DNA of 64,000 nucleotides from Cetobacterium somerae (lineage in GTDB: Bacteria; Fusobacteriota; Fusobacteriia; Fusobacteriales; Fusobacteriaceae): positions 248,001-312,000 of the forward strand of contig NZ_CP092520.1 of NCBI RefSeq assembly GCF_022430525.1, in the 5' to 3' direction. Positions 25,392 to 64,000 of the stretch are shown here, piece after piece (position 1 is the stretch's first letter; every line of letters begins with the position of its first letter). Below the pieces are notes generated by a model that saw only the letters and a list, made by a program, of their open reading frames with translations, had not been told where the DNA came from and did no database searches. The translations under genes were made by a program, and so were the position numbers.

Positions 25392-26945
25392 TTATTTTAT
25401 AATACCTTTATTTATAAGAAACTTATTAATAATATTTTCAATGGGTTCATTCCCTTCAATTGCCAAAAGATTTAACTCTTGCATCTCATCTTCATTTAAA
25501 GCTTCCACAAGAGAATCCAATGCTTCTATAACATCTCCCTTTGTATCTTCAAATCCCTTTCTCATTGTAACCACAACTTCATAAGGAGGAAAAAACTTTA
25601 AATCATCCTCTAAAAGAAGCAACTTATGTTTAGCTATCAATCCATCTGTAGAGTAAACTAAAGCAACCTCAATCTTATCTGAAACTAAAGAATTAATAAC
25701 CAATCCCTGATCCATAGATAGAATACTTTTAAATCTTATATTGTAAGCTTTTTGTATTCCTAAAAGTCCATCTTCTCTCTCCATAAACTCATGAGGACCA
25801 CTTAAAACCATATTATTTGCATATCTTTTTAAATCACTAATAGCTTTTATTCCATACTTTTGAGCTACTTCTGGCTTCATAGCAAAAGCATATGTGTTTT
25901 CAAATCCCATAGGTTCTCTAATATCTAAATTATGATCTGCTAAGTATTCAGATTTTATGATATCAAATACAGTTTTAGCATCTGCCTTCTCTTTCTTTCC
26001 TAAATAAGCTGCATATGCTACACCTGTATATTCAGGATATACATCAATATCTCCACTTTTAATAGCCTCAAATATAACTGTTCCTGTTCCAAGCTCCACT
26101 GTTTTTACTTTATAATTAGTTTTAGCTTCTATAACTTGAGACATCATTACCCCTAAAATTCTTTGTTCGTTGTAATTTTTATGTCCTACAACTATTGTCG
26201 GTATACCTCTACTTTTATTATTTTCATATATTCTAAATCCAATTCCTAATATTAAGATAGCCATAACTATTTTTAAGATTTTTACATTTTTCTTTTTCTC
26301 TTTTGGATTTGTCAACATTCCACTAGGAGTCAGTACTTTTTCCAAAACTCCTAAAAAATAGTTTGCCACAAAAGCTAAAATAGCTGTAGGGATAGCTCCA
26401 GTTAAAACTAGATTATTATTACTTGTTGATATTCCTCTAAATATAAGTTCTCCCAATCCACCCGCTCCAATTAATGCTGCAATTGTTGCTGTTCCTATTG
26501 TAGCTACTGTAGAAATTCTAATTCCTCCCATTATGACAGCTACAGCAATAGGTAACTTAACTTTAGTTAAAACTTGGAAATTAGTCATTCCCATACCGAT
26601 AGCAGCTTGAATGGTAGATTTATCTACCCCTTTTATTCCAATATAAGTATTTGTTATAATTGGTAATAGTGAATATAAAAAAAGTACAAAAACTGCAGGT
26701 TTTATTCCAATTCCCATAATAGGAATTATCAGACCAAATAATGCTAAACTAGGTATTGTTTGAAATATTCCAGCTATAGTCAAAACCACTTTGGAAAGTC
26801 TTTCACTTCTAATTATAAAAATTCCTATTGGAACTCCAATTATAATAGCTATCGCTACAGCAAGACCTGTTATCTCTATATGTTGCATAAGTGCAACATG
26901 AACCTCAGGTAGTTTTTCTATAAAATATTTTATAAATGAGTTCAT
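25392..26945 (-). CDS. OpuC/ProW-type ABC permease fused to glycine-betaine-type binding domain
   Basis: 517 residues. N-terminal permease domain with about six helices (1-205) and the inner-membrane loop GAIGMGMTNFQVLTKVKLPIA contacting the ATPase. C-terminal OpuAC/OpuBC-like substrate-binding domain (about 235-517, from IVVGHKNYNEQRILGVMM) expected outside the membrane. Such fusions occur in betaine/choline/carnitine importers. It overlaps the ATPase stop by 4 bp. Substrate by homology: quaternary ammonium compound. Confidence 0.9.
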   Translation of the reverse strand: MNSFIKYFIEKLPEVHVALMQHIEITGLAVAIAIIIGVPIGIFIIRSERLSKVVLTIAGIFQTIPSLALFGLIIPIMGIGIKPAVFVLFLYSLLPIITNTYIGIKGVDKSTIQAAIGMGMTNFQVLTKVKLPIAVAVIMGGIRISTVATIGTATIAALIGAGGLGELIFRGISTSNNNLVLTGAIPTAILAFVANYFLGVLEKVLTPSGMLTNPKEKKKNVKILKIVMAILILGIGFRIYENNKSRGIPTIVVGHKNYNEQRILGVMMSQVIEAKTNYKVKTVELGTGTVIFEAIKSGDIDVYPEYTGVAYAAYLGKKEKADAKTVFDIIKSEYLADHNLDIREPMGFENTYAFAMKPEVAQKYGIKAISDLKRYANNMVLSGPHEFMEREDGLLGIQKAYNIRFKSILSMDQGLVINSLVSDKIEVALVYSTDGLIAKHKLLLLEDDLKFFPPYEVVVTMRKGFEDTKGDVIEALDSLVEALNEDEMQELNLLAIEGNEPIENIINKFLINKGIIK

Positions 26946-58783: not shown

Positions 58784-59710
58784 TTAAAATATATATTCAA
58801 AACCACATCTAATTTTCATATATAGTCCAGATTCTGAAACACTTGAAAATTTTGTTTTTACTTCTTCAAAATTATATCCAGTTACTCCAATTTTCGCAAA
58901 AATTCGTAACTTCTCTGTTAAATCTTGACTATAGAGCAAGTATGGACCTATATTGAATTTAAAGGATTTATCTTGATCTGTGTTTCTATAATAATTATAC
59001 GAATCAATTTCTGAATCCAATGAAAATGCGAAGTTTTCGTTTAAATCATATGTCCATCTAAAATTATTTTCGATTCTAAATAAATATGTTCCTTTATTAT
59101 TTCCGTAATCTAAATATTCATTATAAATTGTGAAAAAATTCTGGAATCCATAACCTAAATTTATACTTCCTGTTAAATTTCCCTCTAAAGAATATCCGTC
59201 TCGAGAGTTTGTGTCAATAGATGAAAGAAAAGAATCAAATCCCCAATAAGATCCACCCAAACCAATATCTGAATTTGTTCGAACTCTATATCTGATTGAA
59301 TATTTATTTTCCTTAAAATTTTCTCCAAAGTCTCCAGCTATATCACTTACATTATATTTAATGTATGGTCCTATATCTCTAGACCAACTTTTTCCAAAAG
59401 CTTCTTTTTCTTTTAATTTTTTATATAAAGAAAATGTATTTTCCCAACCATCTGTATTAGAGTTTTTATCATACTTTTTTTCAATATCGTAATCAAAAGT
59501 CCAATTTTCTCTTAATTTTGATGTTCCAGTTCCAATTTTCCATTTATAATATTCTTTTCCATCTTTATTTTCTAACTCTCCATAATTCTGATATAGGTTA
59601 TTCTCTGATTCTTCTAAATAAAAATTTAGTATTTCCCGTCCAACACTAAAAGAACTTACATGAAGTAGTAGAAATGTACATATAACATTCTTAATATTCA
59701 TCTCCCACAT
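58784..59710 (-). CDS. Putative outer-membrane beta-barrel protein at the end of the pel operon
   Basis: 308 residues; MWEM could be extra and ATG 59701 (MNIKNVICTFLLLHVSSFS, a signal peptide) fits better, but ribosome binding sites do not decide. The mature part is a run of alternating-residue beta strands rich in Tyr, Phe, Asn and Gly (for example SIRYRVRTNSDIGLGGSYWG) ending in FEYIF, a BAM-type C-terminus. It overlaps pelG by up to 20 bp. It may supply an outer-membrane step of Pel export, but this is positional inference. Confidence 0.7.
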   Translation of the reverse strand: MWEMNIKNVICTFLLLHVSSFSVGREILNFYLEESENNLYQNYGELENKDGKEYYKWKIGTGTSKLRENWTFDYDIEKKYDKNSNTDGWENTFSLYKKLKEKEAFGKSWSRDIGPYIKYNVSDIAGDFGENFKENKYSIRYRVRTNSDIGLGGSYWGFDSFLSSIDTNSRDGYSLEGNLTGSINLGYGFQNFFTIYNEYLDYGNNKGTYLFRIENNFRWTYDLNENFAFSLDSEIDSYNYYRNTDQDKSFKFNIGPYLLYSQDLTEKLRIFAKIGVTGYNFEEVKTKFSSVSESGLYMKIRCGFEYIF

Positions 59711-61808
59711 ACACTCCCTTTCTATTAAAGCCTTCTCTATCTACTCCATTTTCATCATAACCATTTTTATCATAGCCCTCTTTATCATAATTAGTATCAT
59801 ATGAAGTAATTACTTCACTATTATTTTCTAAATCATCTTTTGGTTTTTTATTTCCAGCTTGATCATAGCCATTCTTATTATAGCCTTCTTGATTATAACC
59901 TTCATAATTATAACCGGCTTTATTATAATAATTATTGGTTTCTTTATTTAGACCATACCATGTCCACCCATTTTTATCGTACTCTGTCATTGTTTCTCTA
60001 TTTATTCCTTGAAAATCAAAACCTTTTTTGTCATAGTCGGTTTTAGTTATTCTATTATATCCCGTATAATCAAATCCTCTTTCATCAACATTTTTTCCAG
60101 TATCACTGTTGATTCCACCAAAATCAAAATTAAAATAATCATATGGTGAATCTGTGTACACATTCCATCCCTCTTTTGTAAAACCTCTTGAATTTATTCC
60201 TTCTTGATTATAACCTTCATAATTATAACCAGCCTTATTATAATAACTCATTGTATTCCAGTTTCTTTTAGTTTTTTTATTAAATCCATCTTTTGTATGA
60301 GTATTTGTACAACCACTTAAAAATAGAAGTATAACTATAATCACTGGAAATAACAGCTTACGATTTAATATTTTCTCTAATTTTTCAATAAAAGGTGCTT
60401 CAATATTAAAGGTAAAATTCTGTTTATAAAAAGTAATATAATTTAATTCTTGCGCTATTTTATCTAGCATTATTTCTGATAAAATAAGAGATAAAAATGC
60501 TGCTATAAAAAAACCAAGTCCCGTATATTCTTTTCCCATTAATGATGTTAGTATTGAAAAAGAAGTGCTTAAAAAGAAAAATACCATTGAGACCAATAAA
60601 GCTTCTTTTCTAGAATCAAAATATAAAAATATCGTTATATACACAGATATAAAAACGGTACAATAGGCTCCAAAAATCATAACTCTAAATAAATCCAGTA
60701 GATATAAATCCATTCCATATTTCAAAAATATGATTTTAGATAAAAGAGCTACTGAAAAGGAAACAAAAAATTGCAACTCCATTATATAATAGATTTCCTC
60801 TTTTAATACATCAATCATTTTTTTCTTTTCAATATTTATATCAACTAAATTTCCATTTAATGTTAAAAGAGCGTAGTACTTCTTATAAATCGGAAAAAAT
60901 TTAGTCTCCATAAATACTAAAAAATAAATCATCGTTGGAATTGTTAAAAAGAAAGCATAGAATACTGCTACTTCATATAAGGGTGAACTTAAAAATACTC
61001 CTCCTACTCTATATGAATCACCATATATCCAATTTACAAATATGTGTGACCACATTCCAAAATTAAAAAATATTCCAATAAAACTTAAAGATGTATATCG
61101 CTTAAATGCTCTTAAAAATTCAAATTCGCTTTCATCTGAATCTTCAAATATATATGTTAAATATGAAAATAGCATAAAAAATGTTATTCCTATCCCAATT
61201 GTATAAGATAATATAATCGAATAAGCTAAATTATTTTTAAAAAATTCATTGTCTGAATACTTTAAAATATATCCACCTAATGCTATTGCTGTAATATTCC
61301 CTATTATATAAGCCAATATTGAGTAACTATAATTTTTTACTGCTGATATATAGTTCATACTTACCCAAATTCCAGATAAAAAACAAAATAAAGATGTAAG
61401 CGTAAATATATAAAACCAAGATAAATCTTGACCTTTAAAATATAAAATTCCTATAAAAAAGGCTATTATTAATATAAACTTTATTGTTCCTATATACGTT
61501 GCTTTTAATTTTTTTTGTTCATTTGAATATATACAATCTGATATAAACCTTGTTATAAGATATTGAACTGCTCCTGTTAAAAGTTGAGAAAAAATGAAAG
61601 AATATACTATTCCTGTCATAAAAAGATTTCTCTCTCCTCTTGATAAAATATACTGTTTCCCAATAAACATAAGAATATTTAAAGTTATAACGGTTATTAA
61701 CCATGGGCCTACTCCGATAAGAGCCGAATAGGCCATAGCCTTTATATCTTGAAAGGTATTATTATCGTCTGAAAATAGATTTTTTAATTCAAATCCTATT
61801 CCTGCCAT
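59691..61808 (-). CDS. pelG: PelG exopolysaccharide transporter fused to a lipoprotein-like repeat domain
   Basis: 705 residues against about 456 in Pseudomonas PelG. Starts with the PelG signature MAGIGFELKNLF and has about 12 membrane helices to residue 470. After KLEKILNRK comes a hydrophobic segment and LFLSGC (Cys about 500), which looks like a lipoprotein signal. The remaining 205 residues are Gly-aromatic pentapeptides such as GYNYE, GYNQE, GFTKE and GYDKN. No stop, shift or plausible start separates the two parts. PelG moves the Pel polymer across the inner membrane with PelD/E/F. Confidence 0.88.
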   Translation of the reverse strand: MAGIGFELKNLFSDDNNTFQDIKAMAYSALIGVGPWLITVITLNILMFIGKQYILSRGERNLFMTGIVYSFIFSQLLTGAVQYLITRFISDCIYSNEQKKLKATYIGTIKFILIIAFFIGILYFKGQDLSWFYIFTLTSLFCFLSGIWVSMNYISAVKNYSYSILAYIIGNITAIALGGYILKYSDNEFFKNNLAYSIILSYTIGIGITFFMLFSYLTYIFEDSDESEFEFLRAFKRYTSLSFIGIFFNFGMWSHIFVNWIYGDSYRVGGVFLSSPLYEVAVFYAFFLTIPTMIYFLVFMETKFFPIYKKYYALLTLNGNLVDINIEKKKMIDVLKEEIYYIMELQFFVSFSVALLSKIIFLKYGMDLYLLDLFRVMIFGAYCTVFISVYITIFLYFDSRKEALLVSMVFFFLSTSFSILTSLMGKEYTGLGFFIAAFLSLILSEIMLDKIAQELNYITFYKQNFTFNIEAPFIEKLEKILNRKLLFPVIIVILLFLSGCTNTHTKDGFNKKTKRNWNTMSYYNKAGYNYEGYNQEGINSRGFTKEGWNVYTDSPYDYFNFDFGGINSDTGKNVDERGFDYTGYNRITKTDYDKKGFDFQGINRETMTEYDKNGWTWYGLNKETNNYYNKAGYNYEGYNQEGYNKNGYDQAGNKKPKDDLENNSEVITSYDTNYDKEGYDKNGYDENGVDREGFNRKGVYVGDEY
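59884..59931 (-). repeat. 48-bp direct repeat inside pelG, copy 1
   Basis: Encodes YYNKAGYNYEGYNQEG. Differs from the copy at 60199-60246 at two bases, both silent. The near-identity at DNA level suggests recent duplication or gene conversion within the repeat domain. Confidence 0.9.
60199..60246 (-). repeat. 48-bp direct repeat inside pelG, copy 2
   Basis: Second copy of the unit described at 59884-59931, 315 bp away, in the same frame. Confidence 0.9.
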
Positions 61809-61812
61809 ATTA

Positions 61813-63225
61813 CTACTCTCCTAACTCTTTATATAATCTTTTGTACGAATCTATAAACTGTTTCTTTGAATAGTATTTTTTTACTATCTCTTTTCCATTT
61901 TTACCCATCTCTTTTATTTTTTCTCTATTTTGAAAAAGTGAAACTATAGAATCCCCTAAATCTGAGTATGAAGTTGGTGGAACAATTATTCCAGCCTCAC
62001 CCTCAGGCTTTTCTTTTAAAATTTCTCTACAATTCCCTACATCTGTAGCTATAAATGGTATTCCACAAGCTAATCCTTCTAAGATACTAAGAGGTTGTCC
62101 TTCTGAAATTGATGTAAGCATTAAAAAATCTAAAAATTTATAATATTCTTTTACATCTGCTCTACCAGTAAAAATAACATAATTTTTTAAATCCAAATTT
62201 TCAACCAATTCTAAACATTCATTATAATATTCTTCATTTTCTTCTATTGGTCCTATTAAAAAAAGTTTTGTATTTCTAAGTTTAGGTAATGCCATTTTAA
62301 ATCCTTTTAGCATCATTTTCACGTCTTTTATTGGTACAACTCTTAAAACTGAACCTATATTAAATCCTTCTCTTTTTTCTCTAATAACTTTTTCATAAGC
62401 CTCAATATCAATACCATTTGGAATCACTTCACATTTTTTAAAATTTGCCCCATTTTCAATTTGTAGTTTTCTATTATATTCAAATAAAGATATTATTTTG
62501 TCACATCTATCATAAGTTAATCTCGATAAAAAATAAAAAAAATCTATCCAAATTTTTTTAAAATCTTTCTCTATCCATTTAGCTCCAATAACTTCCTCTT
62601 CTCTTTCACGAGGATAAATTCCGTGTTCTGTTAAAAGTAACGAGCCTCCATTTTTAAGCTTTGCAACTACTGATATATACCCAGAGTACCCCGTTGCCAC
62701 AGGATGGTATATATCTGCTTTAGGTAAAGTTTCTTGAGATAGAGAAATCATATTCAAAAATATATTTCTATATGTCCAATAAAAAGTATTAAAACCTATT
62801 TTACTATAATTCTCATTATAATATTTTAATAAACTATTCCAAAAACTTTTATTAATTATTATCTCTAATGGATTACCATATTTTTTATCTGATATTTTTT
62901 CTATAATTTTTATGACTTCTTCAGAGTTAGTATTGTTAAAATTTAAAATTTTCTCTATATCTCCCTCTAATTTTTTGAAATCAAATCTATTTTTTAAAAC
63001 TTTAAATGGTGAAATTTCATAGTTTTTATCTAAAACTATATTTTTAATTTCTATTATATTTTTAGGTATTTCATATTTTATTTTTGCAAAATCCAAATTT
63101 GGTATTATACATACAATGGAAAATGTATGTTCCTCATTAGATTTTACTAATTCTTGAATCCATGAGGAAACTCCACCTACAACATATGGATAAGACCCTT
63201 CACATATCAAACAGATTTTTGCCAT
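61813..63225 (-). CDS. pelF: PelF exopolysaccharide glycosyltransferase (GT4)
   Basis: 470 residues. N-terminal CLICEGSYPYVVGGVSSWIQ is the PelF signature (GGVSSW), followed by TEHGIYPREREEEV and a GT4 donor domain with VRVVPIKDVK-type and SISEGQPLSILEGLACGIPF. Cytoplasmic enzyme that polymerises the Pel polysaccharide from UDP-amino sugars. Overlaps pelE by 19 bp and lies 4 bp ahead of pelG: one operon. Confidence 0.93.
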   Translation of the reverse strand: MAKICLICEGSYPYVVGGVSSWIQELVKSNEEHTFSIVCIIPNLDFAKIKYEIPKNIIEIKNIVLDKNYEISPFKVLKNRFDFKKLEGDIEKILNFNNTNSEEVIKIIEKISDKKYGNPLEIIINKSFWNSLLKYYNENYSKIGFNTFYWTYRNIFLNMISLSQETLPKADIYHPVATGYSGYISVVAKLKNGGSLLLTEHGIYPREREEEVIGAKWIEKDFKKIWIDFFYFLSRLTYDRCDKIISLFEYNRKLQIENGANFKKCEVIPNGIDIEAYEKVIREKREGFNIGSVLRVVPIKDVKMMLKGFKMALPKLRNTKLFLIGPIEENEEYYNECLELVENLDLKNYVIFTGRADVKEYYKFLDFLMLTSISEGQPLSILEGLACGIPFIATDVGNCREILKEKPEGEAGIIVPPTSYSDLGDSIVSLFQNREKIKEMGKNGKEIVKKYYSKKQFIDSYKRLYKELGE

Positions 63226-64000
63226 CTTCTAACCTCTTTCAACATTTCATTATTATTTAAATCATAATAATATTTTTCTATAAACTCTACTGTAGTTTGA
63301 TCCAAGCTCTCATTTTTTATAATATCTTCAATAAGTTTATCGCATTCCATATAATTTTTCATATCTTTATATATATTTAAAAGATTATATTTATCTCTAG
63401 ACTCTATCTCCTTTTTAGATTTTACATAATATATATACTTTTTTTGATAAAATTCTAAAATTTCTCCAATTAAAAGTCCGGACGTACAGTAATCGTAATA
63501 TACTTCACAAATTTCATTTAAATTCTTTAGATTAGTTTTTTCTTTTATTAATTTTTGAAAATTTTCATCAATTTTATTTATCTCTGTTGCAGCATAGTGA
63601 ATAACTTCGATATCTTCATCCCATAAAGCTTTTTTTAGAACTTCAATCTTAAATTTTAAATTTTGCGTTTCAAATCCAATTAAAAAATTTTTCTTTTCTA
63701 CTGGAGTTCCAACAGCTAAAATATCATAAGCTCCTATTAAATTGAGATCAATAGAACTATTTACTATTATCTCTTTCTCTTCATTTAAAATATATTTTTC
63801 TAAATCTTCATTTATTTCAATCTCGCTTTTAAAGTAGTCTCTAAAAAATAAAAATTGATTTATTAAAATCATACAATAACCAATTACAGGAAAAATTAAA
63901 ATTAAGATGTCAAATTGCTTTTCTCCTGAAATTAATTTATTTAAATATATAAAAATTAAAGATAATGAGAAGTGGCAAATCCAAAAGTATGATCTAAAAC
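63207..64000 (-). CDS. pelE: PelE-like membrane/TPR protein, C-terminal part
   Basis: The reverse frame stays open to the window edge, so the start is off-window. Readable residues show two membrane helices (FSLSLIFIYLNKL and FDILILIFPVIGYCMILINQ) followed by about 210 helical residues with TPR-like spacing (YNLLNIYKDMKNYMECDKLI). Two helices plus TPR before pelF is the PelE plan. It probably scaffolds the PelD/F/G inner-membrane complex. Sequence identity to known PelE cannot be judged here. Confidence 0.75.
   Translation of the reverse strand, partial: FRSYFWICHFSLSLIFIYLNKLISGEKQFDILILIFPVIGYCMILINQFLFFRDYFKSEIEINEDLEKYILNEEKEIIVNSSIDLNLIGAYDILAVGTPVEKKNFLIGFETQNLKFKIEVLKKALWDEDIEVIHYAATEINKIDENFQKLIKEKTNLKNLNEICEVYYDYCTSGLLIGEILEFYQKKYIYYVKSKKEIESRDKYNLLNIYKDMKNYMECDKLIEDIIKNESLDQTTVEFIEKYYYDLNNNEMLKEVRRWQKSV

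Follow-up and report, generated by a model that had tools for sequence, protein, structure and literature searches.

The pel locus and the layout of the fused chain

The window, i.e. the whole stretch of 64,000 nucleotides analysed from the Cetobacterium somerae contig NZ_CP092520.1, carries part of a pel operon on its minus strand. The features considered here are the following.

63207..64000, minus strand: 3' part of a gene for a protein of 292 aa; the gene begins outside the window and occupies the pelE position, as it does in all relatives
61813..63225, minus strand: pelF, a GT4 glycosyltransferase (NCBIfam NF038011 equivalog, 345 bits against a cut-off of 100)
61808..59691, minus strand: fused pelG open reading frame, 705 aa, ATG start
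60429..61808, minus strand: PelG transporter core, residues 1-460 (PF16933, E 1.6e-125), with 12 predicted helices and a predicted cytoplasmic C-terminus
60357..60383, minus strand: n-region KLEKILNRK, residues 476-484, predicted on the cytoplasmic side, K484 being little changed across the clade
60321..60356, minus strand: hydrophobic h-region, the core of helix 13, residues 485-496, assigned from sequence, relatives and hydropathy
60309..60320, minus strand: lipobox LSGC, residues 497-500, with a predicted signal peptidase II cut before Cys500
59694..60308, minus strand: repeat tail, residues 501-705 (205 residues), with G-[YFWIL]-[DN] motifs
58784..59710, minus strand: gene following pelG, start probably at 59701, for a protein with a signal peptide and a predicted outer-membrane beta-barrel of about 14 strands

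In the Pfam search the fused frame covered PF16933 completely (profile positions 1-452 of 452, E 1.6e-125). Together with the adjacent PelF partner and 12 predicted helices with both termini inside, this identifies the protein as a PelG, while residues 461-705 matched nothing in Pfam or NCBIfam. The first-pass annotation had described a module resembling a lipoprotein precursor fused to the C-terminus of PelG, and its parts, i.e. the basic n-region, the hydrophobic helix, LSGC with Cys500 and the 205-residue repeat tail, are all present. Elsewhere in the window (25392-26945) an osmoprotectant-type permease and a substrate-binding domain are encoded as one chain of 517 aa, another case in this genome of an exporter-like membrane protein joined to a periplasmic domain.

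The gene in the pelE position had no match in Pfam or NCBIfam. Just outside the window, upstream, lie genes for three further proteins, as in Pel systems: a DUF2194 deacetylase (E 2.5e-93), a PelD-like protein with a GAF domain, and one resembling GH114 glycosidases. The deacetylase and the hydrolase are thus separate genes in this operon, and they are likewise separate in the Gram-positive pelDEADAFG layout (PMC7112168). The organism is diderm, and no recognisable PelB- or PelC-like gene was found in the operon. The barrel protein encoded after pelG has 305 aa and was modelled by AlphaFold2 with about 14 strands (mean pLDDT 81); its best Foldseek matches were the monomeric porins CymA and OmpG (E ~1e-8). 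PelB has a 16-strand barrel and a TPR scaffold, whereas the barrel predicted here has about 14 strands and leaves no room for TPRs. The barrel gene co-occurs with tailed PelG. Strong homologues of it were found only in PelG-bearing genomes and in one 62 %-complete relative, where pelG may be missing.

Distribution of the fusion and a free homologue of the tail

The search for PelG covered 98 fusobacterial genomes, 24 of which had a PelG above the family cut-off. In 18 genomes, representing 10 genera and two fusobacterial families, a total of 19 PelG copies have helix 13 followed by the repeat tail, which excludes a frameshift or an assembly error as the origin of the fusion. In most fusobacteria with a Pel operon PelG and the lipoprotein are made as a single chain. 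PelG proteins of other phyla are 457-497 aa long (frames of 464-503 aa in eight genomes), and no tail was present in the six of these eight outgroup genomes that were read in detail. In a scan of the genome collection, tail matches were confined to Fusobacteriota, in records of Cetobacterium, Propionigenium maris, Leptotrichiaceae, and Fusobacteriaceae or Psychrilyobacter; the patterns used gave no relatives of the tail outside this phylum.

In genus g14, which matches Psychrilyobacter records, the tail module is encoded on its own, by the gene immediately following pelG (loci L049, L050, L057 and L058). The g14 PelG has 513 aa and ends in a helix of its own, and the lipoprotein gene starts 19 bases later with a ribosome-site-like sequence, an ATG, a signal peptide and a lipobox, reading MKYKIAIVISGIIFMAGC/SSYDKTGFNGNTKRNWHSM (cleavage region MKYKIAIVISGIIFMAGC/SSYDKTGFN; the slash marks the predicted cut here and below). 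From the lipobox onwards the free lipoprotein aligns with the fused tails through a TKRNWHSM block, the repeats and a C-terminal GFNRKxVYIG block (GFNRK-x-x-Y), and its lipobox aligns with that at Cys500. The tail of the window is fused to PelG, whereas the g14 protein has its own gene and start; the module is the same in both, from the lipobox through the repeats to the C-terminal motif. The fused tail is thus homologous to an ordinary lipoprotein with an N-terminal signal, which further supports the initial reading of the tail as a lipoprotein module. It had also been asked whether relatives always keep the two parts as separate genes: they do so in this one genus, and in ten genera, whose fused copies form one clade, the parts are joined.

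The 19 fused PelG proteins form a single clade in the tree (support 100/99), with g14 as sister and genus g7 outside. Because g14 is sister to all fused copies and the outgroups are untailed, the simplest history would be a single fusion in the ancestor of the lineages other than g14, the lipoprotein having formerly been encoded by a separate neighbouring gene. An alternative history, in which a fused gene was split in g14, is conceivable.

The PelG proteins of g7 are longer (1032-1050 aa; L035 9142-12240, plus strand; L036 4198-7350, minus strand) and have a different C-terminus, in which helix 13 is followed by an Asn/Lys-rich linker (about 180 residues) and then by a domain of some 345 residues. 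The g7 genomes have neither the repeat tail nor the barrel gene. A fusion of the g7 PelG to the outer-membrane barrel was considered and is not supported, as there was no profile match and no strand-like alternation. One genome of the Cetobacterium group (G006) contains two pel operons (L038 and L039) with fused PelG proteins of 804 and 704 aa. Two genomes have a broken pelF frame (L035 4892-9140 in G040 and L047 7358-8792 in G019), and G040 a broken DUF2194 gene as well, reflecting either draft errors or loss of function.

In the window the motifs of the tail are spaced by 5 or 13 residues (18 = 5 + 13) and 19 % of its residues are aromatic. The fused tails range from 205 to 409 residues and from pI 4.8 to 8.7, with 16-20 % Phe, Tyr and Trp, and G, N and W positions are invariant among 16 sequences from two families. 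The AlphaFold2 model of the tail (mean pLDDT 84, at least 90 over residues 11-140) contains many very short strands and is suggestive of a solenoid. Neither the tail profile nor the tail model matched a PDB sequence or fold, and the viral library gave no good matches. Similar repeats occur in unrelated fusobacterial proteins, including other lipoproteins and a helicase, and the repeat is thus a general module and not a Pel-specific fold. The helicase-like protein, a frame of 918 aa (L071, G021:C229), has GYD/GFN repeats at its N-terminus, indicating that the repeat is found in cytoplasmic proteins as well. Two other repeat proteins, encoded away from pel operons (L072 and L074), have lipoprotein signals of their own (MKKVIWLGAIVLALSGC and MIIKRLYFLVFLFYLLIGC, respectively).

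The junction signal and the fate of the chain

The topology of PelG was derived by a simple method, from the averaged hydropathy and charge of the 19 aligned relatives. The core has 12 hydrophobic stretches, and its even-numbered (inside) loops contain about 18 Lys and Arg residues compared to about 5 in the odd-numbered loops. With 12 helices and the C-terminus of the core inside, helix 13 would, like a signal peptide, lead out of the cytoplasm, and the positive-inside rule predicts a periplasmic tail.

The published lipobox consensus is [LVI][ASTVI][GAS]C (PMC6139136), and LSGC at residues 497-500 fits it. The junction thereby has all features of a signal peptidase II lipoprotein, i.e. a basic n-region, a hydrophobic h-region and a lipobox with Cys, placed internally (residues 476-500) and not at the N-terminus, where the signal lies only in the g14 homologue. 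A strict lipobox was found near the C-terminal end of 5 out of 795 internal transmembrane segments, as delimited by a crude hydropathy method in about 0.9 Mb of this genome. Among 15 loose matches in the same 0.9 Mb, that of PelG alone combined a basic stretch directly before the helix with a long soluble domain after it, and the lipobox at helix 13 is thus more than chance.

Cys500 is retained in 16 of the 19 fused copies, in 7 genera, although it is conserved no better than about a quarter of the core PelG columns. The Gly preceding it has changed three times among the 19 copies, compared to an average of six changes for each site of the h-region. The three copies without the Cys (G066, G078 and G081) belong to one Leptotrichiaceae clade of modest support (81/80), placed beside genus g24. 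In this clade an Ala-x-Ala-like, i.e. signal peptidase I-like, site replaces the Cys (GGKIKA/STYD, GSAKAHA/AYD and GGKANA/AYD, respectively), the Ile at position -3 of G066 being a weak fit. Genus g24 has both the lipobox and the Ala-type site (LGSCNIHA/AYD). The fused pelG of G078 is interrupted by stop codons (L051 9208-11907) and may be a decaying copy whose sequence is drifting. If selection acts on cutting and not only on tethering, a signal peptidase II site would be expected to give way to one for signal peptidase I at the same position. Both the persistence of Cys500 and the Ala-x-Ala-like site that stands in for it where it was lost favour a cut over an uncut chain.

We consider it probable that PelG is made as a precursor and is cut at an internal signal peptide, and that the periplasmic lipoprotein so freed acts with the barrel encoded next. 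The first 12 helices would fold into the inner-membrane exporter, ending on the cytoplasmic side, and helix 13, a lipoprotein signal peptide retained inside the chain, would cross from the cytoplasm to the periplasm. Lgt would lipidate Cys500 and signal peptidase II would cut before it, freeing a lipid-anchored repeat protein while helix 13 remains on PelG. The lipoprotein would once have been encoded by a separate neighbouring gene, as it still is in g14. A single fusion would have taken place in the ancestor shared by the remaining lineages, the lipid anchor later being swapped for a signal peptidase I-like site in one Leptotrichiaceae clade. In the periplasm the repeat tail would handle the Pel chain together with the barrel, taking the place that PelC has in Pseudomonas. 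Co-occurrence with the barrel gene and the aromatic content of the tail make such guiding of Pel its likeliest function. Genes for both Lgt and LspA were found in the genome. No LolA was detected in it and its LolC/E-like proteins scored below the cut-off, so that the lipoprotein may be destined for either the inner or the outer membrane. Signal peptidase II substrates normally carry a free N-terminal signal. With the internal signal of PelG, Lgt and LspA would need access to a helix packed against the 12 helices of the core.

It is possible, though clearly less probable, that the periplasmic tail is never cut and that helix 13 tethers a repeat arm guiding nascent Pel towards the outer-membrane barrel. 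A 13th helix ends PelG in all fusobacteria examined, even in g14 with its separate lipoprotein and in g7 with its unrelated C-terminus, suggesting that a C-terminal helix is useful on its own. Pseudomonas PelB, which may bridge both membranes via an uncleaved N-terminal helix (PMC12141448), would be a precedent for such a tether. However, a tether leaves unexplained both the persistence of the lipobox Cys in 7 genera and the appearance of an Ala-x-Ala-like site at the same place in the clade that lacks it. Internal cleavage of the PelG chain is regarded as likely.

That the lipobox, derived as it is from a formerly free lipoprotein, is now an unused relic of the fusion and the tail a drifting, tolerated appendix seems very improbable, since Cys500 and the Gly before it change less than the surrounding helix and the G, N and W positions of the tail are invariant across 16 sequences from two families. 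Least probable of all is the production of the tail by internal translation initiation instead of proteolysis. Some relatives do have ATG, GTG or TTG near the junction, a few with a ribosome-site-like sequence, but these codons are not at conserved positions, the sole candidate in the window is a GTG inside the helix that has no ribosome site, and one relative (L044, G005) has no start codon near the junction at all.

Relation to known systems and significance

Internal cleavage would probably mean that one gene gives two proteins in two places. The cytochrome b/c1 precursor FbcH of Bradyrhizobium is a polytopic protein with an internal export signal. Dual Sec-Tat polytopic proteins carry an internal Tat signal and a separately exported domain, and such domains on polytopic proteins are thus already known for Tat signals (PMC5449189). 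Like the fused PelG, these proteins have a multi-helix part, then an internal signal and a domain that is exported, and whether the parts are fused or separate depends on the species. Their signals are of the Tat or signal peptidase I type, whereas PelG has a lipoprotein (signal peptidase II) signal. We found no described case of an internal lipoprotein signal on a polytopic protein, or of a switched cleavage type. A polytopic exporter with an internal signal peptidase II site, cut into its lipoprotein partner and with the site switched to signal peptidase I in a descendant lineage, is probable as well, if with slightly less assurance than the precursor reading itself.

PelC forms an outer-membrane lipoprotein ring in Pel export of Pseudomonas. 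Like PelC, the tail is a predicted lipoprotein of a Pel operon that should be periplasmic and close to an outer-membrane barrel. In contrast to the PelC ring, which is consistently anionic, it is a repeat protein of variable length and charge, and the PDB searches showed no resemblance to the solved subunit of that ring in sequence or fold. A role as a PelC-like anionic funnel was considered and is weakened by the pI range of 4.8 to 8.7 and by the missing fold match.

The fused protein differs from the PelG proteins of other phyla by helix 13 with its lipobox and by a repeat tail of 205 to 409 residues. Two large Pel surveys (PMC7112194, PMC7112168) do not describe this arrangement and do not mention fusobacteria in their main text, and no paper was found on a PelG-lipoprotein fusion or on internal lipoboxes, in agreement with the initial view that the Pel architecture was undescribed.

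The present analysis names candidate parts of outer-envelope Pel export in a diderm phylum, in whose operon neither a PelB nor a PelC gene could be recognised. If the chain is cut, the enzymes that mature lipoproteins would be able to process a signal preceded by 12 membrane helices. This would challenge the assumption of an N-terminal signal made by lipoprotein predictors, by which internal lipoproteins would have been missed. The two cleavage types inside one family make the idea of cleavage directly testable. If true, the fused PelG would be a bacterial envelope precursor giving two products, with a type of anchor that has changed in evolution within the chain itself.
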